Shown one piece after another: positions 5,372-62,240 of a DNA stretch of 64,000 bases; within the stretch, counting starts at the first letter, position 1, and every line of letters starts with the position of its first letter. The notes under the pieces are model-generated. The model saw only the letters and a program-made list of their open reading frames with translations, ran no database searches and was not told the DNA's origin. The position numbers and the translations under genes are program-made. Source of the DNA: Halichondria panicea (lineage: Eukaryota > Porifera > Demospongiae > Suberitida > Halichondriidae); NCBI RefSeq assembly GCF_963675165.1, contig NC_087377.1:375001-439000 (forward strand), in the 5' to 3' direction.

Positions 5372-8300
5372 AGTGTTTACGTTCCCGTGGGTGGGTTCAA
5401 TTCACTAGCAATAGTTTTGCGTTCCCGTGAGTGGGTTCAATTCACTAGCAATAGTTTTGCGTTCCCGTGAGTGGGTTCAATTCACTAGCAATAGTTTTGC
5501 GTTCCGTGGGTGGGTTCAATTCACTAGCAATAGTTTTGCGTTCCCGTGGGTGGGTTCAATTCACTAGCAATAGTTTTGCGTTCCCGTGGGTGGGTTCAAT
5601 TCACTAGCAATAGTTTTGCGTTCCCGTGAGTGGGTTCAATTCACTAGCAATAGTTTTACGTTCCCGTGAGTGGGTTCAATTCACTAGCAATAGTTTTACG
5701 TTCCCGTGAGTGGGTTCAATTCACTAGCAATAGTTTTAAGTTCTCGTGAGTGGTCACTAGCAATAGTTTTGCGTTCCCGTGGGTGGGTTCAATTCACTAG
5801 CAATAGTTTTAAGTTCCCGTGAGTGGTCACTAGCAATAGTTTTGCGTTCCCGTGGGTGGGTTCAATTCACTAGCAATAGTTTGGCGTTCTCGTGAGTGGA
5901 TTCAATTCACTAGCAATAGTTTTGCATTCCCTTGAGTGGGTTCAATTCACTAGCAATAGTTTTACGTTCCCGTGAGTGGGTTAAATTCACTAGCAATAGT
6001 TTTAAGTTCCCGTGAGTGGGTTCAATTCACTAGCAATAGTTTTGCGTTCCCGTGAATGGGTTCAATTCACTAGCAATAGTTTTGCGTTCCCGTGGGTGGG
6101 TTCAATTCACTAGCAATAGTTTTGCGTTCCCGTGAGTGGGTTCAATTCACTAGCAATAGTTTTAAGTTCTCGTGAGTGGTCACTAGCAATAGTTTTGCGT
6201 TCCTGTGGGTGGGTTCAATTCACTAGCAATAGTTTTAAGTTCCCGTGAGTGGTCACTAGCAATAGTTTTGCGTTCCCGTGGGTGGGTTCAATTCACTAGC
6301 AATAGTTTGGCTTTCTCGTGAGTGGGTTCAATTCACTAGCAGTAGTTTTGCATTCCCTTGAGTGGGTTCAATTCACTAGCAATAGTTTTACGTTCCCGTG
6401 AGTGGGTTCAATTCACTAGCAATAGTTTTGCGTTCCCGTGAGTGGGTTCAATTCACTAGCAATAGTTTTGCGTTCCCGTGGGTGGGTTTAATTCACTAGC
6501 AATAGTTTTAAGTTCCTGTGAGTGGTCACTAGCAATAGTTTTGCGTTCCCGTGGGTGGGTTCAATTCACTAGCAATAGTTTTGCGTTCCCGTGAGTGGGT
6601 TCAATTCACCAGCAATAGTTTTGCGTTCCCGTGGGTGGGTTCAATTCACCAGCAATAGTTTTGCGTTCCCGTGAGTGGGTTCAATTCACTAGCAATAGTT
6701 TTGCGTTCCCGTGGGTGGGTTCAATTCACTAGCAATAGTTTTAAGTTCTCGTGAGTGGTCACTAGCAATAGTTTTGCGTTCCCGTGGGTGGGTTCAATTC
6801 ACTAGCAATAGTTTTAAGTTCCTGTGAGTTGTCACTAGCAATAGTTTTGCGTTCCCGTGGGTGGGTTCAATTCACTAGCAATAGTTTTGCGTTCCCGTGA
6901 GTGGGTTCAATTCACTAGCAATAGTTTTACGTTCCCGTGAGTGGGTTCAATTCACTAGCAATAGTTTTACGTTCCCGTGAGTGGGTTCAATTCACTAGCA
7001 ATAGTTTTAAGTTCTCGTGAGTGGTCACTAGCAATAGTTTTGCGTTCCCGTGGGTGGGTTCAATTCACTAGCAATAGTTTTAAGTTTCCGTGAGTGGTCA
7101 CTAGCAATAGTTTTGCGTTCCCGTGGGTGGGTTCAATTCACTAGCAATAGTTTTGCGTTCCCGTGAGTGGGTTCAATTCACTAGCAATAGTTTTGCGTTC
7201 CCGTGAGTGGGTTCAATTCACTAGCAATAGTTTTACGTTCCCGTGAGTGGGTTCAATTCACTAGCAATAGTTTTAAGTTGCCGTGAGTGGGTTCAATTCA
7301 CTAGCAATAGTTTTACGTTCCCATGAGTGGGTTCAATTCACTAGCAATAGTTTTACGTTCCCGTGAGTGGGTTCAATTCACTAGCAATAGTTTTACTTTC
7401 CCTTGAGTGGGTTCAATTCACTAGCAATAGTTTTAAGTTGCCGTGAGTGCATGGGTTCACTTCACTAGCAATAGTTTTACGTTCTCGTGAGTGGGTTCAA
7501 TTCACTAGCAATAGTTTTACTTTCCCTTGAGTGGGTTCAATTCACTAGCAATAGTTTTACGTTCCCGTGAGTGGGTTCAATTCACTAGCAATAGTTTTAC
7601 TTTCCCTTGAGTGGGTTCAATTCACTAGCAATAGTTTTACGTTCCCATGAGTGGGTTCAATTAACTAGCAATAGTTTTACTTTCCTGTGAGTGGGTTCAA
7701 TTCACTAGCAATAGTTTTACGTTCCCGTGAGTGGGTTCAATTCACTAGCAATAGTTTTACTTTCCCTTGAGTGGGTTCAATTCACTAGCAATAGTTTTAC
7801 GTTCCCATGAGTGGGTTCAATTAACTAGCAATAGTTTTACTTTCCTGTGAGTGGGTTCAATTCACTAGCAATAGTTTTACGTTCCCGTGAGTGGGTTCAA
7901 TTCACTAGCAATAGTTTTGCGTTCTTGTGAGTGGGTTCAATTCACTAGCAATAGTTTTGCGTTCCCGTGAGTGGGTTCAATTCACTAGCAATAGTTTTAC
8001 GTTCCCGTGAGTGGGTTCAATTCACTAGCAATAGTTTTAAGTTGCCGTGAGTGGGTTCAATTCACTAGCAATAGTTTTAAGTTGCCGTGAGTGCATGGGT
8101 TCACTTCACTAGCAATAGTTTTACGTTCCCGTGAGTGGGTTCAATTCACTAGCAATAGTTTTGCGTTCCCGTGAGTGGGTTCAATTCACTAGCAATAGTT
8201 TTGCGTTCCCGTGAGTGGGTTCAATTCACTAGCAATAGTTTTAAGTTGCCGTGAGTGGGTTCAATTCACTAGCAATAGTTTTACGTTCCCATGAGTGGGT

Positions 8301-11300
8301 TCAATTCACTAGCAATAGTTTTGCGTTCCCGTGAGTGGGTTCAATTCACTAGCAATAGTTTTACTTTCCCTTGAGTGGGTTCAATTCACTAGCAATAGTT
8401 TTACGTTCCCGTGAGTGGGTTCAATTCACTAGCAATAGTTTTACTTTCCCTTGAGTGGGTTCAATTCACTAGCAATAGTTTTAAGTTGCCGTGAGTGCAT
8501 GGGTTCACTTCACTAGCAATAGTTTTACGTTCCCGTGAGTGGGTTCAATTCACTAGCAATAGTTTTAAGTTGCCGTGAGTGGGTTCAATTCACTAGCAAT
8601 AGTTTTAAGTTGCCGTGAGTGCATGGGTTCACTTCACCAGCAATAGTTTTACTTTCCCGTGAGTGGGTTCAATTCACTAGCAATAGTTTTACGTTCCCGT
8701 GAGTGGGTTCAATTCACTAGCAATAGTTTTACTTTCCTGTGAGTGGGTTCAATTCACTAGCAATAGTTTTACTTTCCCGTGAGTGGGTTCAATTCACTAG
8801 CAATAGTTTTGCGTTCCCGTGAGTGGGTTCAATTCACTAGCAATAGTTTTAAGTTGCCGTGAGTGGGTTCAATTCACTAGCAATAGTTTTACGTTCCCAT
8901 GAGTGGGTTCAATTCACTAGCAATAGTTTTGCGTTCCCGTGAGTGGGTTCAATTCACTAGCAATAGTTTTGCGTTCCCGTGAGTGGGTTCAATTCACTAG
9001 CAATAGTTTTGCGTTCCCGTGAGTGGGTTCAATTCACTAGCAATAGTTTTACTTTCCCTTGAGTGGGTTCAATTCACTAGCAATAGTTTTACGTTCCCGT
9101 AAGTGGGTTCAATTCACTAGCAATAGTTTTACTTTCCCTTGAGTGGGTTCAATTCACTAGCAATAGTTTTACGTTCCCGTGAGTGGGTTCAATTCACTAG
9201 CAATAGTTTTACTTTCCCTTGAGTGGGTTCAATTCACTAGCAATAGTTTTACGTTCCCATGAGTGGGTTCAATTAACTAGCAATAGTTTTACTTTCCTGT
9301 GAGTGGGTTCAATTCACTAGCAATAGTTTTACGTTCCCGTGAGTGGGTTCAATTCACTAGCAATAGTTTTACTTTCCCTTGAGTGGGTTCAATTCACTAG
9401 CAATAGTTTTACGTTCCCATGAGTGGGTTCAATTAACTAGCAATAGTTTTACTTTCCTGTGAGTGGGTTCAATTCACTAGCAATAGTTTTACGTTCCCGT
9501 GAGTGGGTTCAATTCACTAGCAATAGTTTTGCGTTCTTGTGAGTGGGTTCAATTCACTAGCAATAGTTTTGCGTTCCCGTGAGTGGGTTCAATTCACTAG
9601 CAATAGTTTTACGTTCCCGTGAGTGGGTTCAATTCACTAGCAATAGTTTTAAGTTGCCGTGAGTGGGTTCAATTCACTAGCAATAGTTTTAAGTTGCCGT
9701 GAGTGCATGGGTTCACTTCACTAGCAATAGTTTTACGTTCCCGTGAGTGGGTTCAATTCACTAGCAATAGTTTTGCGTTCCCGTGAGTGGGTTCAATTCA
9801 CTAGCAATAGTTTTGCGTTCCCGTGAGTGGGTTCAATTCACTAGCAATAGTTTTAAGTTGCCGTGAGTGGGTTCAATTCACTAGCAATAGTTTTACGTTC
9901 CCATGAGTGGGTTCAATTCACTAGCAATAGTTTTGCGTTCCCGTGAGTGGGTTCAATTCACTAGCAATAGTTTTACTTTCCCTTGAGTGGGTTCAATTCA
10001 CTAGCAATAGTTTTACGTTCCCGTGAGTGGGTTCAATTCACTAGCAATAGTTTTACTTTCCCTTGAGTGGGTTCAATTCACTAGCAATAGTTTTAAGTTG
10101 CCGTGAGTGCATGGGTTCACTTCACTAGCAATAGTTTTACGTTCCCGTGAGTGGGTTCAATTCACTAGCAATAGTTTTAAGTGGCCGTGAGTGGGTTCAA
10201 TTCACTAGCAATAGTTTTAAGTTGCCGTGAGTGCATGGGTTCACTTCACCAGCAATAGTTTTACTTTCCTGTGAGTGGGTTCAATTCACTAGCAATAGTT
10301 TTACGTTCCCGTGAGTGGGTTCAATTCACTAGCAATAGTTTTGCGTTCTTGTGAGTGGGTTCAATTCACTAGCAATAGTTTTGCGTTCCCGTGAGTGGGT
10401 TCAATTCACTAGCAATAGTTTTACGTTCCCGTGAGTGGGTTCAATTCACTAGCAATAGTTTTAAGTTGCCGTGAGTGGGTTCAATTCACTAGCAATAGTT
10501 TTAAGTTGCCGTGAGTGCATGGGTTCACTTCACTAGCAATAGTTTTACGTTCCCGTGAGTGGGTTCAATTCACTAGCAATAGTTTTGCGTTCCCGTGAGT
10601 GGGTTCAATTCACTAGCAATAGTTTTGCGTTCCCGTGAGTGGGTTCAATTCACTAGCAATAGTTTTAAGTTGCCGTGAGTGGGTTCAATTCACTAGCAAT
10701 AGTTTTACGTTCCCATGAGTGGGTTCAATTCACTAGCAATAGTTTTGCGTTCCCGTGAGTGGGTTCAATTCACTAGCAATAGTTTTACTTTCCCTTGAGT
10801 GGGTTCAATTCACTAGCAATAGTTTTACGTTCCCGTGAGTGGGTTCAATTCACTAGCAATAGTTTTACTTTCCCTTGAGTGGGTTCAATTCACTAGCAAT
10901 AGTTTTAAGTTGCCGTGAGTGCATGGGTTCACTTCACTAGCAATAGTTTTACGTTCCCGTGAGTGGGTTCAATTCACTAGCAATAGTTTTAAGTGGCCGT
11001 GAGTGGGTTCAATTCACTAGCAATAGTTTTAAGTTGCCGTGAGTGCATGGGTTCACTTCACCAGCAATAGTTTTACTTTCCCGTGAGTGGGTTCAATTCA
11101 CTAGCAATAGTTTTACGTTCCCGTGAGTGGGTTCAATTCACTAGCAATAGTTTTACTTTCCTGTGAGTGGGTTCAATTCACTAGCAATAGTTTTACTTTC
11201 CCGTGAGTGGGTTCAATTCACTAGCAATAGTTTTGCGTTCCCGTGAGTGGGTTCAATTCACTAGCAATAGTTTTAAGTTGCCGTGAGTGGGTTCAATTCA

Positions 11301-14300
11301 CTAGCAATAGTTTTACGTTCCCATGAGTGGGTTCAATTCACTAGCAATAGTTTTGCGTTCCCGTGAGTGGGTTCAATTCACTAGCAATAGTTTTGCGTTC
11401 CCGTGAGTGGGTTCAATTCACTAGCAATAGTTTTGCGTTCCCGTGAGTGGGTTCAATTCACTAGCAATAGTTTTACTTTCCCTTGAGTGGGTTCAATTCA
11501 CTAGCAATAGTTTTACGTTCCCGTAAGTGGGTTCAATTCACTAGCAATAGTTTTACTTTCCCTTGAGTGGGTTCAATTCACTAGCAATAGTTTTAAGTTG
11601 CCGTGAGTGCATGGGTTCACTTCACTAGCAATAGTTTTACGTTCCCGTGAGTGGGTTCAATTCACTAGCAATAGTTTTACTTTCCCTTGAGTGGGTTCAA
11701 TTCACTAGCAATAGTTTTACGTTCCCGTGAGTGGGTTCAATTCACTAGCAATAGTTTTACTTTCCCTTGAGTGGGTTCAATTCACTAGCAATAGTTTTAA
11801 GTTGCTGTGAGTGCATGGGTTCAATTCACTAGCAATAGTTTTACGTTCCCTTGAGTGGGTTCAATTCACTAGCAATAGTTTTGCGTTCCCGTGAGTGGGT
11901 TCAATTCACTAGCAATAGTTTTACGTTCCCTTGAGTGGGTTCAATTCACTAGCAATAGTTTTGCGTTCCCGTGAGTGGGTTCAATTCACTAGCAATAGTT
12001 TTGCGTTCCCGTGAGTGGGTTCAATTCACTAGCAATAGTTTTACGTTCCCGTGAGTGGGTTCAATTCACTAGCAATAGTTTTAAGTTGCCGTGAGTGGGT
12101 TCAATTCACTAGCAATAGTTTTACGTTCCCATGAGTGGGTTCAATTCACTAGCAATAGTTTTGCGTTCCCGTGAGTGGGTTCAATTCACTAGCAATAGTT
12201 TTACTTTCCCTTGAGTGGGTTCAATTCACTAGCAATAGTTTTAAGTTGCCGTGAGTGCATGGGTTCACTTCACTAGCAATAGTTTTACGTTCCCGTGAGT
12301 GGGTTCAATTCACTAGCAATAGTTTTACGTTCCCTTGAGTGGGTTCAATTCACTAGCAATAGTTTTGCGTTCCCGTGAGTGGGTTCAATTCACTAGCAAT
12401 AGTTTTGCGTTCCCGTGAGTGGGTTCAATTCACTAGCAAGAGTTTTACGTTCCCGTGAGTGGGTTCAATTCACTAGCAATAGTTTTAAGTTGCCGTGAGT
12501 GGGTTCAATTCACTAGCAATAGTTTTACGTTCCCTTGAGTGGGTTCAATTCACTAGCAATAGTTTTGCGTTCCCGTGAGTGGGTTCAATTCACTAGCAAT
12601 AGTTTTACTTTCCCTTGAGTGGGTTCAATTCACTAGCAATAGTTTTACGTTCCCGTGAGTGGGTTCAATTCACTAGCAATAGTTTTACTTTCCCTTGAGT
12701 GGGTTCAATTCACTAGCAATAGTTTTAAGTTGCCGTGAGTGCATGGGTTCACTTTACTAGCAATAGTTTTACGTTCTCGTGAGTGGGTTCAATTCACTAG
12801 CAATAGTTTTACTTTCCCTTGAGTGGGTTCAATTCACTAGCAATAGTTTTGCGTTCCTGTGAGTGGGTTCAATTCACTAGCAATAGTTTTACTTTCCCTT
12901 GAGTGGGTTCAATTCACTAGCAATAGTTTTAAGTTGCCGTGAGTGGGTTCAATTCACTAGCAATAGTTTTACTTTCCCTTTAGTGGGTTCAATTCACTAG
13001 CAATAGTTTTAAGTTGCCGTGAGTGGGTTCAATTCACTAGCAATAGTTTTACGTTCCCTTGAGTGGGTTCAATTCACTAGCAATAGTTTTGCGTTCCCTG
13101 AGTGGGTTCAATTCACTAGCAATAGTTTTGCGTTCCCGTGAGTGGGTTCAATTCACTAGCAATAGTTTTGCGTTCCCGTGAGTGGGTTCAATTCACTAGC
13201 AATAGTTTTACGTTCCCGTGAGTGGGTTCAATTCACTAGCAATAGTTTTACTTTCCCGTGAGTGGGTTCAATTCACTAGCAATTGTTTTACGTTCCCGTG
13301 AGTGGGTTCAATTAACTAGCAATAGTTTTACGTTCCCGTGAGTGGGTTCAATTCACTAGCAATAGTTTTACTTTCCTGTGAGTGGGTTCAATTCACTAGC
13401 AATAGTTTTACGTTCCCGTGAGTTGGTTCAATTCACTAGCAATAGTTTTGCGTTCTTGTGAGTGGGTTCAATTCACTAGCAATAGTTTTGCGTTCCCGTG
13501 AGTGGGTTCAATTCACTAGCAATAGTTTTACGTTCCCGTGAGTGGGTTCAATTCACTTGCAATAGTTTTAAGTTGCCGTGAGTGGGTTCAATTCACTAGC
13601 AATAGTTTTAAGTTGCCGTGAGTGCATGGGTTCACTTCACTAGCAATAGTTTTACGTTCCCTTGAGTGGGTTCAATTCACTAGCAATAGTTTTACGTTCC
13701 CGTGAGTGGGTTCAATTCACTAGCAATAGTTTTGCGTTCCCGTGAGTGGGTTCAATTCACTAGCAATAGTTTTACTTTCCCTTGAGTGGGTTCAATTCAC
13801 TAGCAATAGTTTTACGTTCCCGTGAGTGAGTTCAATTCACTAGCAATAGTTTTACTTTCCCTTGAGTGGGTTCAATTCACTAGCAATAGTTTTAAGTTGC
13901 CGTGAGTGCATGGGTTCACTTCACTAGCAATAGTTTTACGTTCCCGTGAGTGGGTTCAATTCACTAGCAATAGTTTTACGTTCCCGTGAGTGGGTTCAAT
14001 TCACTAGCAATAGTTTTGCGTTCCCGTGAGTGGGTTCAATTCACTAGCAATAGTTTTACTTTTCCTTGAGTGGGTTCAATTCACTAGCAATAGTTTTACG
14101 TTCCCGTGAGTGAGTTCAATTCACTAGCAATAGTTTTACTTTCCCTTGAGTGGGTTCAATTCACTAGCAATAGTTTTAAGTTGCCGTGAGTGCATGGGTT
14201 CACTTCACTAGCAATAGTTTTACGTTCCCGTGAGTGGGTTCAATTCACTAGCAATAGTTTTACGTTCCCTTGAGTGGGTTCAATTCACTAGCAATAGTTT

Positions 14301-16355
14301 TGCGTTCCCGTGAGTGGGTTCAATTCACTATAGCAATAGTTTTAAGTTGCGTGAGTGGGTTCAATTCACTAGCAATAGTTTTGCGTTCCCGTGAGTGGGT
14401 TCAATTCACTAGCAATAGTTTTGCGTTCCCGTGAGTGGGTTCAATTCACTAGCAATAGTTTTGCGTTCCCGTGAGTGGGTTCAATTCACTAACAATAGTT
14501 TTACTTTCCCTTGAGTGGGTTCAATTCACTAGCAATAGTTTTACGTTCCCGTAAGTGGGTTCAATTCACTAGCAATAGTTTTACTTTCCCTTGAGTGGGT
14601 TCAATTCACTAGCAATAGTTTTAAGTTGCCGTGAGTGCATGGGTTCACTTCACTAGCAATAGTTTTACGTTCCCGTGAGTGGGTTCAATTCACTAGCAAT
14701 AGTTTTACTTTCCCTTGAGTGGGTTCAATTCACTAGCAATAGTTTTACGTTCCCGTGAGTGGGTTCAATTCACTAGCAATAGTTTTACTTTCCCTTGAGT
14801 GGGTTCAATTCACTAGCAATAGTTTTAAGTTGCCGTGAGTGCATGGGTTCACTTCACTAGCAATAGTTTTACGTTCCCGTGAGTGGGTTCAATTCACTAG
14901 CAATAGTTTTATGTTCCCTTGAGTGGGTTCAATTCACTAGCAATAGTTTTGCGTTCCCTGAGTGGGTTCAATTCACTAGCAATAGTTTTGCGTTCCCGAG
15001 AGTGGGTTCAATTCACTAGCAATAGTTTTACTTTCCCTTGAGTGGGTTCAATTCACTAGCAATAGTTTTACGTTCCCGTTAGTGGGTTCAATTAACTAGC
15101 AATAGTTTTACGTTCCCGTGAGTGGGTTCAATTCACTAGCAATAGTTTTACTTTCCTGTGAGTGGGTTCAATTCACTAGCAATAGTTTTACGTTCCCGTG
15201 AGTGGGTTCAATTCACTAGCAATAGTTTTGCGTTCTTGTGAGTGGGTTCAATTCACTAGCAATAGTTTTGCGTTCCCGTGAGTGGGTTCAATTCACTAGC
15301 AATAGTTTTACGTTCCCTTGAGTGGGTTCAATTCACTAGCAATAGTTTTGCGTTCCCTGAGTGGGTTCAATTCACTAGCAATAGTTTTGCGTTCCCGTGA
15401 GTGGGTTCAATTCACTAGCAATAGTTTTGCGTTCCCGTGAGTGGGTTCAATTCACTAGCAATAGTTTTGCGTTCCCGAGAGTGGGTTCAATTCACTAGCA
15501 ATAGTTTTACTTTCCCTTGAGTGGGTTCAATTCACTAGCAATAGTTTTACGTTCCCGTGAGTGGGTTCAATTAACTAGCAATAGTTTTACGTTCCCGTGA
15601 GTGGGTTCAATTCACTAGCAATAGTTTTACTTTCCTGTGAGTGGGTTCAATTCACTAGCAATAGTTTTACGTTCCCGTGAGTGGGTTCAATTCACTAGCA
15701 ATAGTTTTGCGTTCTTGTGAGTGGGTTCAATTCACTAGCAATAGTTTTGCGTTCCCGTGAGTGGGTTCAATTCACTAGCAATAGTTTTACGTTCCCGTGA
15801 GTGGGTTCAATTCACTAGCAATAGTTTTAAGTTGCCGTGAGTGGGTTCAATTCAATAGCAATAGTTTTAAGTTGCCGTGAGTGCATGGGTTCACTTCACT
15901 AGCAATAGTTTTACGTTCCCGTGAGTGGGTTCAATTCACTAGCAATAGTTTTACGTTCCCTTGAGTGGGTTCAATTCACTAGCAATAGTTTTGCGTTCCC
16001 GTGAGTGGGTTCAATTCACTAGCAATAGTTTTGCGTTCCCGTGAGTGGGTTCAATTCACTAGCAATAGTTTTACGTTCCCGTGAGTGGGTTCAATTCACT
16101 AGCAATAATTTTACGTTCCCGTGAGTGCATGGGTTCAATTCACTAGCAATAGTTTTACGTTCCCGTGAGTGGGTTCAATTCACTAGCAATAGTTTTACGT
16201 TCCCGTGAGTGGGTTCAATTCACTAGCAATAGTTTTACGTTCCCGTGAGTGGGTTCAATTCACTAGCAATAGTTTTACGTTCCCGTGAGTGGGTTCAATT
16301 CACTAGCAATAGTTTTGCGTTCCCGTGAATGGGTTCAATTCACTGACAATAGTTT
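5372..16355 (+). repeat. Giant 40-bp minisatellite array 1 (about 270 units)
   Basis: Head-to-tail units of 40 bp have the core GTGAGTGGGTTCAATTCAC followed by TAGCAATAGTTTT. Variants include 33-bp units that lack seven bases (AGTGGTCACTAG) and 44-bp units with an added GCAT (GTGCATGGGTTCACTTCAC). The first 1.8 kb mixes GTGGGTGGG and 33-bp units, as array 2 does. From about 7.2 kb the array is dominated by ACTTTCCCTTGAG, AAGTTGCCGTGAG and 44-bp variants that array 2 lacks. Higher-order repeats are visible: blocks shifted by 1,612 bp (7,921 to 9,533; 8,091 to 9,703) and by 812 bp (9,533 to 10,345; 9,703 to 10,515). The array probably lies in an intron of the orphan plus-strand gene. Confidence 0.97.
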
Positions 16356-16500
16356 TGGTTTTTGCGCTGTACTCCCCCCTTGCATGTGTGACTGTTTTTT
16401 GTAGTTTGTGCTTTTTGCGCTGTGCTCCTCCCTTGCAGCTGTGACTGTGTTTTGTAGTTTGTGCTTTTTGCGCTGTACTCCCCACACTCACACACACACA
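16356..16500 (+). repeat. 53-bp tandem repeat flanking array 1, about 2.6 units
   Basis: Units contain TTTTTGCGCTGTACTCCCCC and TGTTTTGTAGTTTGTGC. The same repeat, four units, abuts array 2 at 62,241-62,456. It is followed by a short CA run at 16,488-16,507. Confidence 0.85.
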
Positions 16501-16507
16501 CACACAG

Positions 16508-17353
16508 TGAAGGAGCCTCCATCACAACGCCAGCGATATTTCCATAGTCATGATGAGGTACGCTAGGGGGTGTGGTCTCAGCTTGTGTGTGGGTGTGTGT
16601 GTAACTGTACATTATGCTGCATGTGAAATTGTCGTGTACTATAATTATATAAATACGACCACTTTCCCTCATCCCCCATTTCTCTGTAGACACGCTGTTT
16701 CTTATAATCATGGACACTGATGGGATAAGTTGAAGATAATTATTGTCAAGAAAGTAAACACAAGCCCGGCCCGTTACCAAGGAAACATGACAACATTGAT
16801 CATCATTGAAAATTTTTAGCCTATGCAGTCATAAAAATTAATATTGTTGTATTTTTTAATCTCTACTGCTAAAAATTAATTATGACCAAGAGTGCATGCG
16901 CTCTTGTTATGACATAATAATAATTATTACAATAAAAGTGGTAAAGATCATTAACTATATAAGTAAGTAAGAATTATGTGCTTACAGTCTCCATGAGAAC
17001 CAGTGTCCTCTCACGAGATCTGATCTACTAGCCACACCCTTAACCACTAGGCCACACCCATTCTTCACCAATCTGTGTATTATCAGGAGCTCATAAATAA
17101 GTTTAATTTTGATGACGGCTCTCTTCTGATGCTACACAGTTACAATACATTTATCATTGATAACATAGCTGGCATGTGCAATTGTGTGGACAGACATTGA
17201 CTCAACAAAGCATTCACATCAGGTATAATTATGGTGGATAGAGTGCTAGTAGTCACGGCCACACAAACACTAGCTAGTATAATTGATAAAGAACAAAAAT
17301 TAATAATTAAAAAATTAATACCAGCAGTCACAGTTTATAATGGCTAGAGGACA
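16508..17353. other. Mostly non-coding interval downstream of array 1
   Basis: An acceptor-like (CA)nCAG at about 16,496 is followed by an open stretch to a GTACGC donor-like site at 16,554. One frame reads KEPPSQRQRYFHSHDE, but that frame does not match the phase of orphan exon 2. The rest is AT-rich with TAATTATTA strings and nothing recognisable. Confidence 0.4.
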
Positions 17354-32427: not shown

Positions 32428-32611
32428 CTGAAATAATAGGAATAATAATAGACTGAAACACGGAGTGATTCACACGTACGTCCCTTGAAGAAGTACCCAG
32501 TATAATCACGTATGCACAGTAATAGTCACAGTTCATATTCACTTTCAAAAAGAAGTCATCTATAATACCGTCTAGTTATCATCTTCTGCAATTAACCTCT
32601 ACACATAATTA

Positions 32612-47030: not shown

Positions 47031-47149
47031 GGTGGGAGGTTCAATAAGCAGTATATAGAGTGGAGTGTGTCTATTGTAGTCACCCTCTATAATACAGCCA
47101 GGTTTGATAAGGGACCCAGAGTCAGCCTCTGCTGTATAATCAATAAGCC

Positions 47150-47890: not shown

Positions 47891-48349
47891 GTTGGTCTAC
47901 CCACCACTATACATATACAGGGTATACTAATAGTAAGGTACTCACAAAGACATTAGTGACATGGTTGGTAGTTCCTGTGATCCTGGACACCACCTCACAC
48001 ACTTGCCAGATACTGGGACGCAGCTCAGGGTCAGAGGTCAACAAGTAAGCTACAAAGAGGGGGAGAATCATTAGAGCAATACACTTAGGACTTAAGGCTG
48101 GTGTGTGTGTGTGTGTGTGTGTGTGTAAGGGGGTGGGGTGTGTGTGTGTGTACATGTACCTCTCAAGTTGTGCATGCAGGTCTTGTGTGTAGGGGGAGTC
48201 TTCAGGAATGCTGTACTGAGCACTGACTATGGCTAGAGGGTTGTCACCAAATGGAGTAGTGCCTATGTGTGGGCGGGTGTGTGTTGTGTGAAGGTGTGAT
48301 GATATGGGTACCATTACATTCGTCTCATTGAGAGCTTTCAAATGAGTAT

Positions 48350-48838: not shown

Positions 48839-48841
<3 letters not shown>

Positions 48842-50628: not shown

Positions 50629-50774
50629 GTGAGTACTGCCGCGTGCAGAGTGTGACTCTTTCCCTGACCAAACTTTGATCTCTCTTTCCCTGACCAAACT
50701 TTGATCTGAGCATATTAATGTGATAGGCCTTATTTAACAGTGCTTGGAATAGTTATTCGCTGTACTCCCCCCTA

Positions 50775-53700
50775 GTGTTTACGTTCCCGTGGGTGGGTTC
50801 AATTCACTAGCAATAGTTTTGCGTTCCCGTGAGTGGGTTCAATTCACTAGCAATAGTTTTGCGTTCCCGTGAGTGGGTTCAATTCACTAGCAATAGTTTT
50901 GCGTTCCCGTGAGTGGGTTCAATTAATTCACTAGCAATAGTTTTACGTTCCCGTGAGTGGGTTCAATTCACTAGCAATAGTTTTGCGTTCCCGTGAGTGG
51001 GTTCAATTCACTAGCAATAGTTTTGCGTTCCCGTGGGTGGGTTCAATTCACTAGCAATAGTTTTGCGTTCCCGTGGGTGGGTTCAATTCACTAGCAATAG
51101 TTTTACGTTCCCGTGAGTGGGTTCAATTCACTAGCAATAGTTTTACGTTCCCGTGAGTGGGTTCAATTCACTAGCAATAGTTTTAAGTTCCCGTGAGTGG
51201 TCACTATCAATAGTTTTGCGTTCCCATGAGTGGGTTCAATTCACTAGCAATAGTTTTAAGTTCTCGTGAGTGGTCACTAGCAATAGTTTTGCGTTCCCAT
51301 GAGTGGGTTCAAGTCACTAGCAATAGTTTTGCGTTCCCGTGGGTGGGTTCAATTCACTAGCAATAGTTTTAAGTTCCTGTGAGTCGTCACTAGCAATAGT
51401 TTTGCGTTCCCGTGGGTGGGTTCAATTCACTAGCAATAGTTTTGCGTTCCCGTGGGTGGGTTCAATTCACTAGCAATAGTTTTAAGTTCCCGTGAGTGGT
51501 CACTAGCAATAGTTTTGCATTCCCGTGGGTGGGTTCAATTCACTAGCAATAGTTTTGCGTTCTCGTGAGTGGATTCAATTCACTAGCAATAGTTTTGCAT
51601 TCCCTTGAGTGGGTTCAATTCACTAGCAATAGTTTTACGTTCCCGTGAGTGGGTTCAATTCACTAGCAATAGTTTTAAGTTCCCGTGAGTGGGTTCAATT
51701 CACTAGCAATAGTTTTGCGTTCCCGTGGGTGGGTTCAATTCACTAGCAATAGTTTTGCGTTCCCGTGAGTGGGTTCAATTCACTAGCAATAGTTTTGCGT
51801 TCCCGTGGGTGGGTTCAATTCACTAGCAATAGTTTTGCGTTCCCGTGGGTGGGTTCAATTCACCAGCAATAGTTTTGCGTTCCCGTGGGTGGGTTCAATT
51901 CACCAGCAATAGTTTTACGTTCCCGTGAGTGGGTTCAATTCACTAGCAATAGTTTTAAGTTCTCGTGAGTGGTCACTAGCAATAGTTTTGCGTTCCCGTG
52001 GGTGTGTTCATTTCACTAGCAATAGTTTTAAGTTCCTGTGAGTGGTCACTAGCAAAAGTTTTGCGTTCCCGTGGGTGGGTTCAATTCACTAGCAATAGTT
52101 TTGCGTTCCCGTGAGTGGGTTCAATTCACTAGCAATAGTTTTACGTTCCCGTGAGTGGGTTCAATTCACTAGCAATAGTTTTACGTTCCCGTGAGTGGGT
52201 TCAATTCACTAGCAATAGTTTTAAGTTCTCGTGAGTGGTCACTAGCAATAGTTTTGCGTTCCCGTGGGTGGGTTCAATTCACTAGCAATAGTTTTACGTT
52301 CCCGTGAGTGGGTTCAATTCACTAGCAATAGTTTTAAGTTCTCGTGAGTGGTCACTAGCAATAGTTTTGCGTTCCCGTGAGTGGGTTCAATTCACTAGCA
52401 ATAGTTTTGCGTTCCCGTGAGTGGGTTCAATTCACTAGCAATAGTTTTAAGTTCCCGTGAGTGGGTTCAATTCACTAGCAATAGTTTTGCGTTCCCGTGA
52501 GTGGGTTCAATTCACTAGCAATAGTTTTGCGTTCCCGTGAGTGGGTTCAATTCACTAATAGTTTTACGTTCCCGTGAGTCGGTTCAATTCACTAGCAATA
52601 GTTTTACGTTCCCGTGAGTGGGTTCAATTCACTAGCAATACTTTTAAGTTCTCGTGAGTGGTCACTAGCAATAGTTTTGCGTTCCCGTGGGTGTGTTCAT
52701 TTCACTAGCAATAGTTTTAAGTTCCTGTGAGTGGTCACTAGCAAAAGTTTTGCGTTCCCGTGGGTGGGTTCAATTCACTAGCAATAGTTTTGCGTTCCCG
52801 TGAGTGGGTTCAATTCACTAGCAATAGTTTTACGTTCCCGTGAGTGGGTTCAATTCACTAGCAATAGTTTTACGTTCCCGTGAGTGGGTTCAATTCACTA
52901 GCAATAGTTTTAAGTTCTCGTGAGTGGTCACTAGCAATAGTTTTGCGTTCCCGTGGGTGGGTTCAATTCACTAGCAATAGTTTTACGTTCCCGTGAGTGG
53001 GTTCAATTCACTAGCAATAGTTTTAAGTTCTCGTGAGTGGTCACTAGCAATAGTTTTGCGTTCCCGTGAGTGGGTTCAATTCACTAGCAATAGTTTTAAG
53101 TTCCCGTGAGTGGGTTCAATTCACTAGCAATAGTTTTGCGTTCTCGTGAGTGGGTTCAATTCACTAGCAATAGTTTTGCGTTCCCGTGAGTGGGTTCAAT
53201 TCACTAGCAATAGTTTTGCGTTCCCGTGGGTGGGTTCAATTCACTAGCAATAGTTTTGCGTTCCCGTGGGTGGGTTCAATTCACCAGCAATAGTTTTGCG
53301 TTCCCGTGGGTGGGTTCAATTCACCAGCAATAGTTTTACGTTCCCGTGAGTGGGTTCAATTCACTAGCAATAGTTTTAAGTTCTCGTGAGTGGTCACTAG
53401 CAATAGTTTTGCGTTCCCGTGGGTGTGTTCATTTCACTAGCAATAGTTTTAAGTTCCTGTGAGTGGTCACTAGCAAAAGTTTTGCGTTCCCGTGGGTGGG
53501 TTCAATTCACTAGCAATAGTTTTGCGTTCCCGTGAGTGGGTTCAATTCACTAGCAATAGTTTTACGTTCCCGTGAGTGGGTTCAATTCACTAGCAATAGT
53601 TTTACGTTCCCGTGAGTGGGTTCAATTCACTAGCAATAGTTTTAAGTTCTCGTGAGTGGTCACTAGCAATAGTTTTGCGTTCCCGTGGGTGGGTTCAATT

Positions 53701-56700
53701 CACTAGCAATAGTTTTACGTTCCCGTGAGTGGGTTCAATTCACTAGCAATAGTTTTAAGTTCTCGTGAGTGGTCACTAGCAATAGTTTTGCGTTCCCGTG
53801 AGTGGGTTCAATTCACTAGCAATAGTTTTAAGTTCCCGTGAGTGGGTTCAATTCACTAGCAATAGTTTTGCGTTCCCGTGAGTGGGTTCAATTCACTAGC
53901 AATAGTTTTGCGTTCCCGTGAGTGGTTTCAATTCACTAATAGTTTTACGTTCCCGTGAGTCGGTTCAATTCACTAGCAATAGTTTTACGTTCCCGTGAGT
54001 GGGTTCAATTCACTAGCAATACTTTTAAGTTCTCGTGAGTGGTCACTAGCAATAGTTTTGCGTTCCCGTGGGTGGGTTCAATTCACTAGCAATAGTTTTG
54101 CGTTCCCGTGGGTGGGTTCAATTCACTAGCAATAGTTTTAAGTTCCCGTGAGTGGTCACTAGCAATAGTTTTAAGTTCCCGTGAGTGGGTTCAATTCACT
54201 AGCAATAGTTTTGCGTTCCCGTGAGTGGGTTCAATTCACTAGCAATAGTTTTAAGTTCCCGTGAGTGGGTTCAATTCACTAGCAATAGTTTTGCATTCCC
54301 TTGAGTGGGTTCAATTCACTGGCAATAGTTTTACGTTCCCGTGAGTGGGTTCAATTCACTAGCAATAGTTTTAAGTTCCCGTGAGTGGGTTCAATTCACT
54401 AGCAATAGTTTTGCGTTCCCGTGAGTGGGTTCAATTCACTAGCAATAGTTTTGCGTTCCCGTGAGTGGGTTCAATTCACTAGCAATAGTTTTAAGTTCCC
54501 GTGAGTGGGTTCAATTCACTAGCAATAGTTTTGCGTTCCCGTGGGTAGGTTCAATTCACTAGCAATAGTTTTGCGTTCCCGTGGGTGGGTTCAATTCACT
54601 AGCAATAGTTTTAAGTTCCCGTGAGTGGTCACTAGCAATAGTTTTGCATTCCCGTGGGTGGGTTCAATTCACTAGCAATAGTTTTGCGTTCTCGTGAGTG
54701 GATTCAATTCACTAGCAATAGTTTTGCATTCCCTTGAGTGGGTTCAATTCACTAGCAATAGTTTTACGTTCCCGTGAGTGGGTTCAATTCACTAGCAATA
54801 GTTTTAAGTTCCCGTGAGTGGGTTCAATTCACTAGCAATAGTTTTGCGTTCCCGTGGGTGGGTTCAATTCACTAGCAATAGTTTTGCGTTCCCGTGAGTG
54901 GGTTCAATTCACTAGCAATAGTTTTGCGTTCCCGTGGGTGGGTTCAATTCACTAGCAATAGTTTTGCGTTCCCGTGGGTGGGTTCAATTCACCAGCAATA
55001 GTTTTGCGTTCCCGTGGGTGGGTTCAATTCACCAGCAATAGTTTTACGTTCCCGTGAGTGGGTTCAATTCACTAGCAATAGTTTTAAGTTCTCGTGAGTG
55101 GTCACTAGCAATAGTTTTGCGTTCCCGTGGGTGTGTTCATTTCACTAGCAATAGTTTTAAGTTCCTGTGAGTGGTCACTAGCAAAAGTTTTGCGTTCCCG
55201 TGGGTGGGTTCAATTCACTAGCAATAGTTTTGCGTTCCCGTGAGTGGGTTCAATTCACTAGCAATAGTTTTACGTTCCCGTGAGTGGGTTCAATTCACTA
55301 GCAATAGTTTTACGTTCCCGTGAGTGGGTTCAATTCACTAGCAATAGTTTTAAGTTCTCGTGAGTGGTCACTAGCAATAGTTTTGCGTTCCCGTGGGTGG
55401 GTTCAATTCACTAGCAATAGTTTTACGTTCCCGTGAGTGGGTTCAATTCACTAGCAATAGTTTTAAGTTCCCGTGAGTGGTCACTATCAATAGTTTTGCG
55501 TTCCCATGAGTGGGTTCAATTCACTAGCAATAGTTTTAAGTTCTCGTGAGTGGTCACTAGCAATAGTTTTGCGTTCCCATGAGTGGGTTCAAGTCACTAG
55601 CAATAGTTTTGCGTTCCCGTGGGTGGGTTCAATTCACTAGCAATAGTTTTAAGTTCCTGTGAGTCGTCACTAGCAATAGTTTTGCGTTCCCGTGGGTGGG
55701 TTCAATTCACTAGCAATAGTTTTGCGTTCCCGTGGGTGGGTTCAATTCACTAGCAATAGTTTTAAGTTCCCGTGAGTGGTCACTAGCAATAGTTTTGCAT
55801 TCCCGTGGGTGGGTTCAATTCACTAGCAATAGTTTTGCGTTCTCGTGAGTGGATTCAATTCACTAGCAATAGTTTTGCATTCCCTTGAGTGGGTTCAATT
55901 CACTAGCAATAGTTTTACGTTCCCGTGAGTGGGTTCAATTCACTAGCAATAGTTTTAAGTTCCCGTGAGTGGGTTCAATTCACTAGCAATAGTTTTGCGT
56001 TCCCGTGGGTGGGTTCAATTCACTAGCAATAGTTTTGCGTTCCCGTGAGTGGGTTCAATTCACTAGCAATAGTTTTGCGTTCCCGTGGGTGGGTTCAATT
56101 CACTAGCAATAGTTTTGCGTTCCCGTGGGTGGGTTCAATTCACCAGCAATAGTTTTGCGTTCCCGTGGGTGGGTTCAATTCACCAGCAATAGTTTTACGT
56201 TCCCGTGAGTGGGTTCAATTCACTAGCAATAGTTTTAAGTTCTCGTGAGTGGTCACTAGCAATAGTTTTGCGTTCCCGTGGGTGTGTTCATTTCACTAGC
56301 AATAGTTTTAAGTTCCTGTGAGTGGTCACTAGCAAAAGTTTTGCGTTCCCGTGGGTGGGTTCAATTCACTAGCAATAGTTTTGCGTTCCCGTGAGTGGGT
56401 TCAATTCACTAGCAATAGTTTTACGTTCCCGTGAGTGGGTTCAATTCACTAGCAATAGTTTTACGTTCCCGTGAGTGGGTTCAATTCACTAGCAATAGTT
56501 TTAAGTTCTCGTGAGTGGTCACTAGCAATAGTTTTGCGTTCCCGTGGGTGGGTTCAATTCACTAGCAATAGTTTTACGTTCCCGTGAGTGGGTTCAATTC
56601 ACTAGCAATAGTTTTAAGTTCTCGTGAGTGGTCACTAGCAATAGTTTTGCGTTCCCGTGAGTGGGTTCAATTCACTAGCAATAGTTTTAAGTTCCCGTGA

Positions 56701-59700
56701 GTGGGTTCAATTCACTAGCAATAGTTTTGCGTTCCCGTGAGTGGGTTCAATTCACTAGCAATAGTTTTGCGTTCCCGTGAGTGGGTTCAATTCACTAATA
56801 GTTTTACGTTCCCGTGAGTCGGTTCAATTCACTAGCAATAGTTTTACGTTCCCGTGAGTGGGTTCAATTCACTAGCAATACTTTTAAGTTCTCGTGAGTG
56901 GTCACTAGCAATAGTTTTGCGTTCCCGTGGGTGTGTTCATTTCACTAGCAATAGTTTTAAGTTCCTGTGAGTGGTCACTAGCAAAAGTTTTGCGTTCCCG
57001 TGGGTGGGTTCAATTCACTAGCAATAGTTTTGCGTTCCCGTGAGTGGGTTCAATTCACTAGCAATAGTTTTACGTTCCCGTGAGTGGGTTCAATTCACTA
57101 GCAATAGTTTTACGTTCCCGTGAGTGGGTTCAATTCACTAGCAATAGTTTTAAGTTCTCGTGAGTGGTCACTAGCAATAGTTTTGCGTTCCCGTGGGTGG
57201 GTTCAATTCACTAGCAATAGTTTTACGTTCCCGTGAGTGGGTTCAATTCACTAGCAATAGTTTTAAGTTCTCGTGAGTGGTCACTAGCAATAGTTTTGCG
57301 TTCCCGTGAGTGGGTTCAATTCACTAGCAATAGTTTTAAGTTCCCGTGAGTGGGTTCAATTCACTAGCAATAGTTTTGCGTTCCCGTGAGTGGGTTCAAT
57401 TCACTAGCAATAGTTTTGCGTTCCCGTGAGTGGGTTCAATTCACTAATAGTTTTACGTTCCCGTGAGTCGGTTCAATTCACTAGCAATAGTTTTACGTTC
57501 CCGTGAGTGGGTTCAATTCACTAGCAATACTTTTAAGTTCTCGTGAGTGGTCACTAGCAATAGTTTTGCGTTCCCGTGGGTGGGTTCAATTCACTAGCAA
57601 TAGTTTTGCGTTCCCGTGGGTGGGTTCAATTCACTAGCAATAGTTTTAAGTTCCCGTGAGTGGTCACTAGCAATAGTTTTAAGTTCCCGTGAGTGGGTTC
57701 AATTCACTAGCAATAGTTTTGCGTTCCCGTGAGTGGGTTCAATTCACTAGCAATAGTTTTAAGTTCCCGTGAGTGGGTTCAATTCACTAGCAATAGTTTT
57801 GCATTCCCTTGAGTGGGTTCAATTCACTGGCAATAGTTTTACGTTTCCGTGAGTGGGTTCAATTCACTAGCAATAGTTTTAAGTTCCCGTGAGTGGGTTC
57901 AATTCACTAGCAATAGTTTTGCGTTCCCGTGAGTGGGTTCAATTCACTAGCAATAGTTTTGCGTTCCCGTGAGTGGGTTCAATTCACTAGCAATAGTTTT
58001 AAGTTCCCGTGAGTGGGTTCAATTCACTAGCAATAGTTTTGCGTTCCCGTGGGTAGGTTCAATTCACTAGCAATAGTTTTGCGTTCCCGTGAGTGGGTTC
58101 AATTCACTAGCAATAGTTTTGCGTTCCCGTGGGTGGGTTCAATTCACTAGCAATAGTTTTGCGTTCCCGTGGGTGGGTTCAATTCACCAGCAATAGTTTT
58201 GCGTTCCCGTGGGTGGGTTCAATTCACCAGCAATAGTTTTACGTTCCCGTGAGTGGGTTCAATTCACTAGCAATAGTTTTAAGTTCTCGTGAGTGGTCAC
58301 TAGCAATAGTTTTGCGTTCCCGTGGGTGTGTTCATTTCACTAGCAATAGTTTTAAGTTCCTGTGAGTGGTCACTAGCAAAAGTTTTGCGTTCCCGTGGGT
58401 GGGTTCAATTCACTAGCAATAGTTTTGCGTTCCCGTGAGTGGGTTCAATTCACTAGCAATAGTTTTACGTTCCCGTGAGTGGGTTCAATTCACTAGCAAT
58501 AGTTTTACGTTCCCGTGAGTGGGTTCAATTCACTAGCAATAGTTTTAAGTTCTCGTGAGTGGTCACTAGCAATAGTTTTGCGTTCCCGTGGGTGGGTTCA
58601 ATTCACTAGCAATAGTTTTGCGTTCCCGTGAGTGGGTTCAATTCACCAGCAATAGTTTTGCGTTCCCGTGGGTGGGTTTAATTCACCAGCAATAGTTTTA
58701 CGTTCCCGTGAGTGGGTTCAATTCACTAGCAATAGTTTTAAGTTCTCGTGAGTGGTCACTAGCAATAGTTTTGCGTTCCCGTGGGTGGGTTCAATTCACT
58801 AGCAATAGTTTTGCGTTCCCGTGGGTGGGTTCAATTCACTAGCAATAGTTTTAAGTTCCCGTGAGTGGTCACTAGCAATAGTTTTACGTTCCCGTGAGTG
58901 GGTTCAATTCACTAGCAATAGTTTTAAGTTCCCGTGAGTGGGTTCAATTCACTAGCAATAGTTTTGCATTCCCTTGAGTGGGTTCAATTCACTGGCAATA
59001 GTTTTACGTTCCCGTGAGTGGGTTCAATTCACTAGCAATAGTTTTAAGTTCCCGTGAGTGGGTTCAATTCACTAGCAATAGTTTTGCGTTCCCGTGGGTG
59101 GGTTCAATTCACTAGCAATAGTTTTGCGTTCCCGTGGGTGGGTTCAATTCACTAGCAATAGTTTTGCGTTCCCGTGAGTGGGTTCAATTCACTAGCAATA
59201 GTTTTGCGTTCCCGTGAGTGGGTTCAATTCACTAGCAATAGTTTTGCGTTCCCGTGAGTGGGTTCAATTCACTAGCAATAGTTTTGCGTTCTCGTGAGTG
59301 GGTTCAATTCACTAGCAATAGTTTTGCGTTCCCGTGAGTGGGTTCAATTCACTAGCAATAGTTTTGCGTTCCCGTGGGTGGGTTCAATTCACTAGCAATA
59401 GTTTTGCGTTCCCGTGGGTGGGTTCAATTCACCAGCAATAGTTTTGCGTTCCCGTGGGTGGGTTCAATTCACCAGCAATAGTTTTACGTTCCCGTGAGTG
59501 GGTTCAATTCACTAGCAATAGTTTTAAGTTCTCGTGAGTGGTCACTAGCAATAGTTTTGCGTTCCCGTGGGTGTGTTCATTTCACTAGCAATAGTTTTAA
59601 GTTCCTGTGAGTGGTCACTAGCAAAAGTTTTGCGTTCCCGTGGGTGGGTTCAATTCACTAGCAATAGTTTTGCGTTCCCGTGAGTGGGTTCAATTCACTA

Positions 59701-62240
59701 GCAATAGTTTTACGTTCCCGTGAGTGGGTTCAATTCACTAGCAATAGTTTTACGTTCCCGTGAGTGGGTTCAATTCACTAGCAATAGTTTTAAGTTCTCG
59801 TGAGTGGTCACTAGCAATAGTTTTGCGTTCCCGTGGGTGGGTTCAATTCACTAGCAATAGTTTTACGTTCCCGTGAGTGGGTTCAATTCACTAGCAATAG
59901 TTTTAAGTTCTCGTGAGTGGTCACTAGCAATAGTTTTGCGTTCCCGTGAGTGGGTTCAATTCACTAGCAATAGTTTTAAGTTCCCGTGAGTGGGTTCAAT
60001 TCACTAGCAATAGTTTTGCGTTCCCGTGAGTGGGTTCAATTCACTAGCAATAGTTTTGCGTTCCCGTGAGTGGTTTCAATTCACTAATAGTTTTACGTTC
60101 CCGTGAGTCGGTTCAATTCACTAGCAATAGTTTTACGTTCCCGTGAGTGGGTTCAATTCACTAGCAATACTTTTAAGTTCTCGTGAGTGGTCACTAGCAA
60201 TAGTTTTGCGTTCCCGTGGGTGGGTTCAATTCACTAGCAATAGTTTTGCGTTCCCGTGGGTGGGTTCAATTCACTAGCAATAGTTTTAAGTTCCCGTGAG
60301 TGGTCACTAGCAATAGTTTTAAGTTCCCGTGAGTGGGTTCAATTCACTAGCAATAGTTTTGCGTTCCCGTGAGTGGGTTCAATTCACTAGCAATAGTTTT
60401 AAGTTCCCGTGAGTGGGTTCAATTCACTAGCAATAGTTTTGCATTCCCTTGAGTGGGTTCAATTCACTGGCAATAGTTTTACGTTCCCGTGAGTGGGTTC
60501 AATTCACTAGCAATAGTTTTAAGTTCCCGTGAGTGGGTTCAATTCACTAGCAATAGTTTTGCGTTCCCGTGAGTGGGTTCAATTCACTAGCAATAGTTTT
60601 GCGTTCCCGTGAGTGGGTTCAATTCACTAGCAATAGTTTTAAGTTCCCGTGAGTGGGTTCAATTCACTAGCAATAGTTTTGCGTTCCCGTGGGTAGGTTC
60701 AATTCACTAGCAATAGTTTTGCGTTCCCGTGAGTGGGTTCAATTCACTAGCAATAGTTTTGCGTTCCCGTGGGTGGGTTCAATTCACCAGCAATAGTTTT
60801 ACGTTCCCGTGAGTGGGTTCAATTCACTAGCAATAGTTTTAAGTTCTCGTGAGTGGTCACTAGCAATAGTTTTGCGTTCCCGTGGGTGTGTTCATTTCAC
60901 TAGCAATAGTTTTAAGTTCCTGTGAGTGGTCACTAGCAAAAGTTTTGCGTTCCCGTGGGTGGGTTCAATTCACTAGCAATAGTTTTGCGTTCCCGTGAGT
61001 GGGTTCAATTCACTAGCAATAGTTTTACGTTCCCGTGAGTGGGTTCAATTCACTAGCAATAGTTTTACGTTCCCGTGAGTGGGTTCAATTCACTAGCAAT
61101 AGTTTTAAGTTCTCGTGAGTGGTCACTAGCAATAGTTTTGCGTTCCCGTGGGTGGGTTCAATTCACTAGCAATAGTTTTGCGTTCCCGTGAGTGGGTTCA
61201 ATTCACCAGCAATAGTTTTGCGTTCCCGTGGGTGGGTTTAATTCACCAGCAATAGTTTTACGTTCCCGTGAGTGGGTTCAATTCACTAGCAATAGTTTTA
61301 AGTTCTCGTGAGTGGTCACTAGCAATAGTTTTGCGTTCCCGTGGGTGGGTTCAATTCACAAGCAATAGTTTTGCGTTCCCGTGGGTGGGTTGAATTCACT
61401 AGCAATAGTTTTAAGTTCCCGTGAGTGGTCACTAGCAATAGTTTTACGTTCCCGTGAGTGGGTTCAATTCACTAGCAATAGTTTTAAGTTCCCGTGAGTG
61501 GGTTCAATTCACTAGCAATAGTTTTGCATTCCCTTGAGTGGGTTCAATTCACTGGCAATAGTTTTACGTTCCCGTGAGTGGGTTCAATTCACTAGCAATA
61601 GTTTTAAGTTCCCGTGAGTGGGTTCAATTCACTAGCAATAGTTTTGCGTTCCCGTGGGTGGGTTCAATTCACTAGCAATAGTTTTGCGTTCCCGTGGGTG
61701 GGTTCAATTCACTAGCAATAGTTTTGCGTTCCCGTGAGTGGGTTCAATTCACTAGCAATAGTTTTGCGTTCCCGTGAGTGGGTGCAATTCACTAGCAATA
61801 GTTTTGCGTTCTCGTGAGTGGGTTCAATTCACTAGCAATAGTTTTGCGTTCCCGTGAGTGGGTTCAATTCGCTAGCAATAGTTTTGCATTCCCTTGTGTG
61901 GGTTCAATTCACTAGCAATAGTTTTACGTTCCCGTGGGTGGATTCAATTCACTAGCAATAGTTTCAAGTTTCCGTGAGTGGGTTAAATTCACTAGCAATA
62001 GTTTACGTTCCCGTTAGTGGGTTCAATTCACTAGCAATAATTTTGCGTTCCCGTCAGTGGGTTCAATTCACTAGCAATAGTTTTGCGTTCCCGTGAGTGG
62101 GTTCAATTCACTAGCAATAGTTTTAAGTTCCCGTGAGTGGTCACTAGCAATAGTTTTGCGTTCCCATGAGTGGGTTCAATTCACTAGCAATAGTTTTACG
62201 TTCCCGTGAGTGGGTTCAATTCACTAGCAATAGTTTTACG
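50775..62240 (+). repeat. Giant 40-bp minisatellite array 2 (about 290 units)
   Basis: Same unit and orientation as array 1, about 11.5 kb. Dominated by GTGAGTGGG, GTGGGTGGG and 33-bp (GTGAGTGGTCAC) units. Marker variants recur (GGTGTGTTCATTTCAC at about 52,001, 52,690, 53,422, 55,130, 56,281, 56,930, 58,325, 59,570 and 60,885), showing nested higher-order repeats. Two exact-looking long shifts are 4,280 bp (51,201 to 55,481) and 2,640 bp (57,649 to 60,289), both multiples of 40. The GTGCATGGG 44-bp units of array 1 are absent. Confidence 0.97.

Follow-up and report, generated by a model that had tools for sequence, protein, structure and literature searches.

A 40-bp minisatellite that probably grew within an existing short intron of a subtelomeric gene family in the sponge Halichondria panicea

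The Drosophila genes kl-3 and kl-5 reportedly carry gigantic introns that contain satellite repeats. Here, two long arrays of a 40-bp unit are described in the demosponge Halichondria panicea, in a 64,000-nucleotide stretch of contig NC_087377.1 (C1), referred to as the window (C1:375,001-439,000, forward strand); each array lies downstream of an exon-2 block of the same gene family. The likeness to kl-3 and kl-5 consists in satellite repeats within introns; the Drosophila introns are megabase-sized and belong to known genes with a studied expression programme, whereas the sponge introns are putative, measure about 11-13 kb and belong to a weakly supported short gene. In humans, the intronic variable number tandem repeat (VNTR) of CACNA1C, termed TRACT, has a 30-bp unit and spans 3-30+ kb (PMC13131567). 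TRACT shares with the sponge arrays a long intronic run of a short unit, several-fold length differences (between alleles there, between copies here) and growth from within. It is a single locus that differs from person to person, and its expansion is ascribed to perfect one-unit tracts (PMC13131567), whereas the sponge arrays, compared within one assembly, occupy many paralogous loci per genome, are subtelomeric, show mixed-block duplication and end in alternative 3' flanks. Human subtelomeric VNTRs likewise have units of more than 15 bp near chromosome ends; their reported enrichment concerns G+C content (GC) above 60% (PMC7608644), against 41-44% GC in the window arrays. In Schistosoma mansoni, gene segments are multiplied at and between chromosome ends (PMC10900676); in the sponge, by contrast, a satellite expands in one intron-like interval, on a single chromosome so far. 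A literature search on sponge subtelomeric satellites returned nothing on the subject. The window arrays are probably a subtelomeric minisatellite, so far seen on one chromosome, that grew within a short intron already present in a gene family near chromosome ends.

Both arrays run in the forward orientation (Table 1). Tandem Repeats Finder (TRF) places array 1 at 5371-16356 (274.2 copies, 91% matches) and array 2 at 50773-62241 (296.3 copies, 87% matches), with consensus units one base apart. At 40 bp and 274 or 296 copies, the unit falls within the range of minisatellites (tandem units of about 10-100 bp). The preliminary description, which gave outer limits of 5372 and 62240 and about 560 units in two arrays of one orientation, agrees with these values to within about 2%. 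Its statement that the common upstream flank ends at the exon-2 donor does not hold: the flank, 88% identical between copy 2 and copy 1, runs 118 bp further in copy 1 (donor 5253, array start 5371) and 144 bp further in copy 2 (donor 50629, array start 50773). An exact 35-base core of the unit has 1,799 matches in the genome (1,492 forward, 307 reverse), of which 223 lie within the window arrays and 123 within C1:1-200,000; the reversed control has none, which excludes a chance origin of the matches.

The interval occupied by the arrays is found empty elsewhere in the genome. Ten paralogue stretches, eight of them off C1, were compared, with a cut-off of E <= 0.01 for matches to the 40-mer and to the 53-bp unit that closes both window arrays. 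Six of the eight non-C1 stretches (C2, C5, C7, C10 at 80 kb, C13 and C16, six contigs in all) contain exon 1, an exon-2-like block (exon 2A), a piece of exon 2 with the donor region, and exon 3, in this order. From exon 2 to exon 3 they measure about 0.64-1.2 kb, and none shows a 40-mer or 53-mer match at the cut-off. The exon-2 match is only 34-39 nt long in C2, C5, C7 and C10; exon 2A is present in all seven non-C1 stretches that contain exon 1. Of the other two non-C1 stretches, the one in C10 at 142 kb lacks a block that convincingly matches exon 3, and C10 at 6,894 kb shows exon 3 only, as that stretch did not cover exons 1 and 2. On C1, the copy at 4.69 Mb has about 1.3 kb of 53-mers ahead of its 40-mers, and the 641-kb stretch has only a weak 40-mer match, on the opposite strand. 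The exon-3 acceptor reads GTGCAG/GA in C2, C7, both C10 stretches with exon 3 and one type of 3' flank on C1 (T2, that of array 2), and GCATGCAG/GA in C16. The C16 paralogue carries about six tandem copies of exon 3 (3551-3861 (-) of the fetched stretch), and the C7 array-free interval holds a fold-back insert of about 300 bp (about 5280-5590 of the fetched stretch, by eye).

Since six paralogues keep the exon order without an array, the array appears to have expanded inside a pre-existing intron-like interval. For array 2, which has exon blocks homologous to the array-free paralogues on both sides, the slot is, judged by this homology, an intron-like interval that is array-free elsewhere. The candidate downstream exon of array 1 has no significant similarity to family exon 3 (247 of 1000 shuffles score as high); its homology to exon 3 lacks support on this count, and the exon model there is doubtful. 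For the next exon of the array 1 type of 3' flank (T1) the count is 40 of 1000 shuffles, and the whole T1 and T2 exon regions show marginal similarity (16 of 1000 shuffles as good). The earlier proposal that both arrays form introns, provided that the downstream exon model is right, is supported as regards the slot and the exons around array 2, and doubtful as regards the downstream exon of array 1.

The assembly comprises 131.5 Mb in 39 contigs. C1 is 18,138,809 bp long and has TTAGGG repeats at both ends; the window starts 375 kb inside the left telomere and is therefore subtelomeric. At the left end of C1, a perfect 31-bp tandem repeat of about 55 copies (421-2117 of the fetched stretch) adjoins the telomere repeats. 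With the arrays masked, most parts of the window recur in C1:1-200,000 at about 80-98% identity (matches >250 bp), the main non-recurring part being 34.4-39.0 kb, the site of a transposase. The 5' part of the gene family has at least 54 genome matches, on C1 and twelve other contigs; 40 of 211 candidate matches were scored, so that family counts are lower bounds. Family copies on C1 lie mostly on the plus strand, with minus-strand copies at 641 kb and at 4.69, 4.79 and 13.29 Mb. Outside C1, 13 copies were fetched; 11 are no more than 230 kb away from a contig end, and the other two are about 0.74 Mb (C5) and 2.0 Mb (C6) from one. Like subtelomeric segmental duplications, the family lies near telomeres and is common to several chromosome ends. 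Copies also occur deep inside C1, at 4.69, 4.79 and 13.29 Mb, and C1 (18.1 Mb) is about twice the size of the second-longest contig seen (8.6 Mb); the internal copies could mark old chromosome fusions or internal transposition.

Genome searches with up to three mismatches located the 5' junction of the window arrays (J5a) at 18 sites (16 exact, two with one mismatch), the T1 3' end at 18 and the T2 3' end at 12, all on C1. Seventeen J5a sites are on the plus strand between C1:64,268 and 817,340, and one is on the minus strand at 13,289,057. Pairing by hand with the next 3' end assigns 13 of the 18 J5a starts: eight to T2 (starts near 64, 189, 221, 326, 426, 632 and 739 kb and 13.29 Mb) and five to T1 (293, 380, 754, 772 and 789 kb). 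The unpaired starts are those at 597 and 612 kb, where the next start precedes any end, and at 529, 672 and 817 kb, where the next end is 23-49 kb off. The shortest span obtained in this way is about 0.5 kb (739 kb) and the longest about 16.7 kb (13.29 Mb), and the window arrays rank third and fourth in length among the 13; array stretches within C1:1-200,000 measure about 0.4 to 4.5 kb. At C1:529-538 kb, array blocks of identical score recur at steps of about 2.26 and 3.08 kb, a pattern pointing to recent large block duplications in that array.

These positions bear on whether the arrays are mainly a telomere-associated satellite of chromosome ends, with the gene family merely carried along between them. 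The closeness of 11 of 13 non-C1 family copies to a contig end fits such an origin, but it is very unlikely. As regards presence on most chromosomes, as expected of such a satellite, the analysis covered the array junctions, which lie on C1 only, and the slot in the six paralogues on other contigs, which is array-free. Moreover, the J5a copy at 13.3 Mb and the 53-mer/40-mer copy at 4.69 Mb lie far from an end, and the repeat adjoining the left telomere of C1 has a different, 31-bp unit.

Seven arrays, the two of the window and five of C1:1-200,000 (64, 90, 103, 152 and 189 kb), were decoded into 901 pieces of 147 kinds. Array 1 contains five internal repeats of runs of at least eight identical units (longest 26), array 2 contains 35 (longest 35) and the 64-kb array one; the other four arrays contain none. 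Between arrays, no run of at least eight identical units is found in any of the 21 pairs. Long unit runs that repeat within three arrays and never between arrays indicate independent expansion. A different picture emerges at the ends. Over the last six units, the likeness is 0.98-0.99 within the T2 group (window array 2, 64, 90 and 189 kb) and 0.95-0.98 within the T1 group (window array 1, 103 and 152 kb), against 0.88-0.89 between T1 and T2 arrays; for random internal blocks the median is 0.88, the 95th percentile 0.94 and the maximum 0.98. The array interiors turned over independently after duplication, and the edges changed less. The same individual order bears on the possibility that assembly errors produced the array lengths or one of the two copies. 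Long near-identical subtelomeric repeats are hard to assemble; nevertheless, an artefact is highly improbable, as C1 has telomere repeats at both ends, each array has an internal order of its own, with no common run of eight or more identical units, and the upstream flank of copy 2 is 88% identical to that of copy 1.

A second 5' arrangement, with 53-mers between exon 2 and the 40-mers, occurs at 103, 152 and 90 kb. The two kinds of start (J5a or 53-mer) and the two 3' flanks (T1 or T2) occur in all four combinations: the 53-mer start is joined to T1 at 103 and 152 kb and to T2 at 90 kb, where the array is interrupted, and window array 1 combines a J5a start with a T1 end. This distribution suggests exchange through the arrays. 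Unequal exchange or conversion would be the simplest account, and recurrent deletion is a possible alternative. A more tentative and rather doubtful extension is that the arrays serve as exchange points joining the 5' halves of genes to other downstream sequences, the satellite driving the reshuffling of gene ends and the growth of the subtelomeric family.

As to the source of the repeats, three sequences resemble the array-free segment of C16: the 53-mer, with 11 of 2000 shuffles as good, the J5a flank, with 3 of 2000, and the T2 flank, with 0 of 2000. Judged by its resemblance, the 53-mer probably derives from duplicated sequence of the interval itself. The diverged 40-mer at 63094-63255 agrees with the main one in 27 of 40 bases in register, matched by 0 of 2000 shuffles, a figure inflated by unit doubling; the two are, by this comparison, related.

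Exon 1 of the host family was located in 28 of 29 sequences and is full-length and gap-free over 138 nt in 21 of them. These 21 copies hold 30 nonsynonymous and 15 synonymous changes, against 32.7 and 11.6 expected from the intron-1 spectrum. The ratio, analogous to that of nonsynonymous to synonymous rates (dN/dS), is 0.71 (p = 0.31), which is no significant constraint at the low power of 21 copies. Events per site number 0.326 in exon 1 and 0.291 in intron 1; for indels, 25 sequences give two events over 123 columns in exon 1 and 14 over 433 in intron 1. Exon 1 contains a stop in two of 28 copies (C4, C17) and is broken, frameshifted or without an ATG in five (101, 137, 220 and 325 kb, 13.29 Mb). 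Read by eye from an intact exon 1, the frame meets a stop before the donor in 12 of 15 exon-2 copies, window copy 2 included, and stays open to the donor in three (window copy 1, 63 kb and 88 kb). For the 88-residue conceptual product of copy 1, Pfam gives no match at E <= 0.1. A coding role of the family is weakly supported by these sequences. The block upstream of each array had been described as exon 2 of an orphan gene; homologous exon-2 blocks do precede both arrays, but a gene of 80-100 codons is not supported, given stops in 12 of 15 exon-2 copies and an exon 1 without significant constraint.

A functional intronic element, through transcriptional delay, a chromatin domain or a nuclear repeat RNA acting on the gene, is unlikely, although the slot is intron-like, splice sites are kept on both sides of array 2, and variants are, by count, spread unevenly over the unit. 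Satellite-rich giant introns of Drosophila provide a precedent. Another is the lower expression that goes with long CACNA1C repeat alleles (PMC13131567). Against a function stand the spans of about 0.5 to 16.7 kb between copies (junction pairing), the 33-bp variant units that lack part of the 40-bp unit, the absence of significant constraint on exon 1, and the six paralogues that manage without an array. The great length variation between copies and the independent turnover of the interiors argue against any function that depends on a fixed array. Among the new variants, G to A and C to T predominate (52 of 116 events). Of these 116, 65 fall in positions 9-23, 45 in 24-40 and 6 in 1-8, the last count being biased by unit cutting; counted as distinct variants in this way (65 events over 15 positions against 45 over 17), the stronger conservation of the 3' half of the unit, which had looked like constraint, becomes less marked without disappearing. 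Base composition may explain the remaining contrast. The lack of visible constraint suggests that the arrays have no function. Any effect on the gene is most likely incidental, namely a longer intron wherever a copy is still transcribed.

Two specific roles of the unit were considered and rejected. Each unit carries a donor-like hexamer, GTGAGT, that could act as a decoy for U1; the first G of this hexamer, however, ranks with the most variable positions (0.859 among 739 40-bp units) and takes 6 of the 116 variant events. The sequence GGTTCAATTC in the unit is close to the B box of RNA polymerase III promoters. The window contains no tRNA (ARAGORN) and no Rfam match at gathering score; variants occur within the element (positions 28 and 33, with nine and seven events), and the 33-bp units lack part of it.

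The growth of a minisatellite inside a pre-existing intron can be outlined in steps. An ancestral module of exon 1, exon 2, an intron of 0.6-1.2 kb and exon 3 would have spread over chromosome ends, where the six array-free paralogues on six contigs retain it. The intron on C1 would have gained the 53-bp and 40-bp tandem repeats now present there, in an order of events that is conjectural. The left end of C1 would then have multiplied the segment, mostly in one orientation, as seen within C1:1-200,000 and, more widely, by whole-genome matches. Each array would have grown and shrunk alone through duplication of many-unit blocks, as read from the decoded arrays (blocks in three of seven), its ends changing less. 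Exchange between copies through the arrays may finally have swapped 3' flanks, to judge from the four flank combinations.

Several points weigh against this outline. A source of the 40-bp unit was not found among the 53-mer and the C16 interval: derivation from the former (1496 of 2000 shuffles as good) or the latter (1667 of 2000) has no support. At 0.95, the likeness of the 3' end of array 1 to the T1 arrays is barely above the 95th percentile for random blocks. The 5' end of array 1 scores 0.95 with array 2 and the 64-kb array, yet also 0.90 with the 152-kb array; the T1 link of array 1 is modest and draws also on the matching T1 junction and flank. Sequence comparison leaves room for a common ancestry of the T1 and T2 3' flanks. 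Donors are kept in 26 of 28 copies of exon 1 and in 15 of 15 of exon 2, so that transcription of some copies is possible, and intron length might have an effect there. Scope matters as well: turnover is read from the seven decoded arrays and continuity from the window and C1:1-200,000, the other lengths coming from hand-paired junctions, and the apparent restriction of the 40-mer to C1 is read from junction searches and array-free paralogues, with no contig-by-contig map of the unit.

Table 1. Features of the two gene-family copies and their arrays (positions in the window)
Feature	Position	Strand	Basis
Exon 1, copy 1, 46 codons, donor GTGAGT	4315..4452	+	sequence and family comparison
Exon-2-like block in intron 1 (exon 2A), copy 1, with stops	4631..4774	+	sequence comparison
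Exon 2 (2B), copy 1, 89 nt, open through donor	5164..5252	+	sequence
5' intron end before array 1, ends in J5a junction	5253..5370	+	sequence
Array 1, 40-bp unit, 274 copies	5371..16356	+	TRF and unit decoding
53-bp repeats closing array 1 (T1-type 3' flank)	16357..16483	+	TRF and T1 search
Candidate downstream exon of copy 1 (T1 flank)	16508..16557	+	no significant exon-3 similarity
Exon 1, copy 2	49720..49857	+	sequence
Exon 2 (2B), copy 2, 90 nt, in-frame stop before donor	50539..50628	+	sequence
5' intron end before array 2, J5a junction	50629..50772	+	sequence and junction search
Array 2, 40-bp unit, 296 copies; 40- and 33-bp units mixed, long internal block duplications	50773..62241	+	TRF and unit decoding
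Four 53-bp repeats closing array 2 (T2-type 3' flank)	62242..62459	+	TRF and T2 search
Diverged second 40-bp repeat (class B), 27/40 bases as in main unit, in register	63094..63255	+	TRF and comparison
Exon 3 of copy 2, acceptor GTGTGCAG, homologous to array-free paralogues	63435..63480	+	paralogue comparison
AATAAA, possible polyadenylation signal of copy 2	63664..63669	+	by eye

The window holds other features. At 36831-38337 (+) lie two overlapping frames of one transposase (Pfam DDE_Tnp_1_7, E 9.2e-80 and 9.2e-15), apparently split by a frameshift, which we take to be piggyBac-like. Very young local duplications surround it (32795-34441 and 40009-41662; 38964-40008 and 41659-42703; 99.4% and 99.9% identity). 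The region 28539-32548 (-) contains an 817-amino-acid frame with a P-loop-like GKT motif (by eye) and no Pfam match above cut-off, beside two Death-domain-like frames below the Pfam cut-off; it is possibly an innate-immunity-like gene. Ten copies of a 74-bp repeat (96%) at 47142-47888 lie near a minus-strand ankyrin gene, and their number differs in other copies of the segment. The minus-strand neighbour has Pfam ankyrin repeats at 797-1123; a reading of part of it as a kinase, based on a motif only, was rejected, with no Pfam match at 47907-48341.

Taken as a single-window finding, the two arrays are mostly ordinary chromosome-end biology. In the genome as a whole they belong to a natural series, in which array-free intervals of 0.6-1.2 kb elsewhere stand beside at least 18 expanded versions of up to about 17 kb on one chromosome. 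With such a series, one could trace from copy to copy how a satellite arises in an intron, how it expands independently and what part it plays as a recombination substrate. One could also test what intron length does when the promoters are nearly identical.

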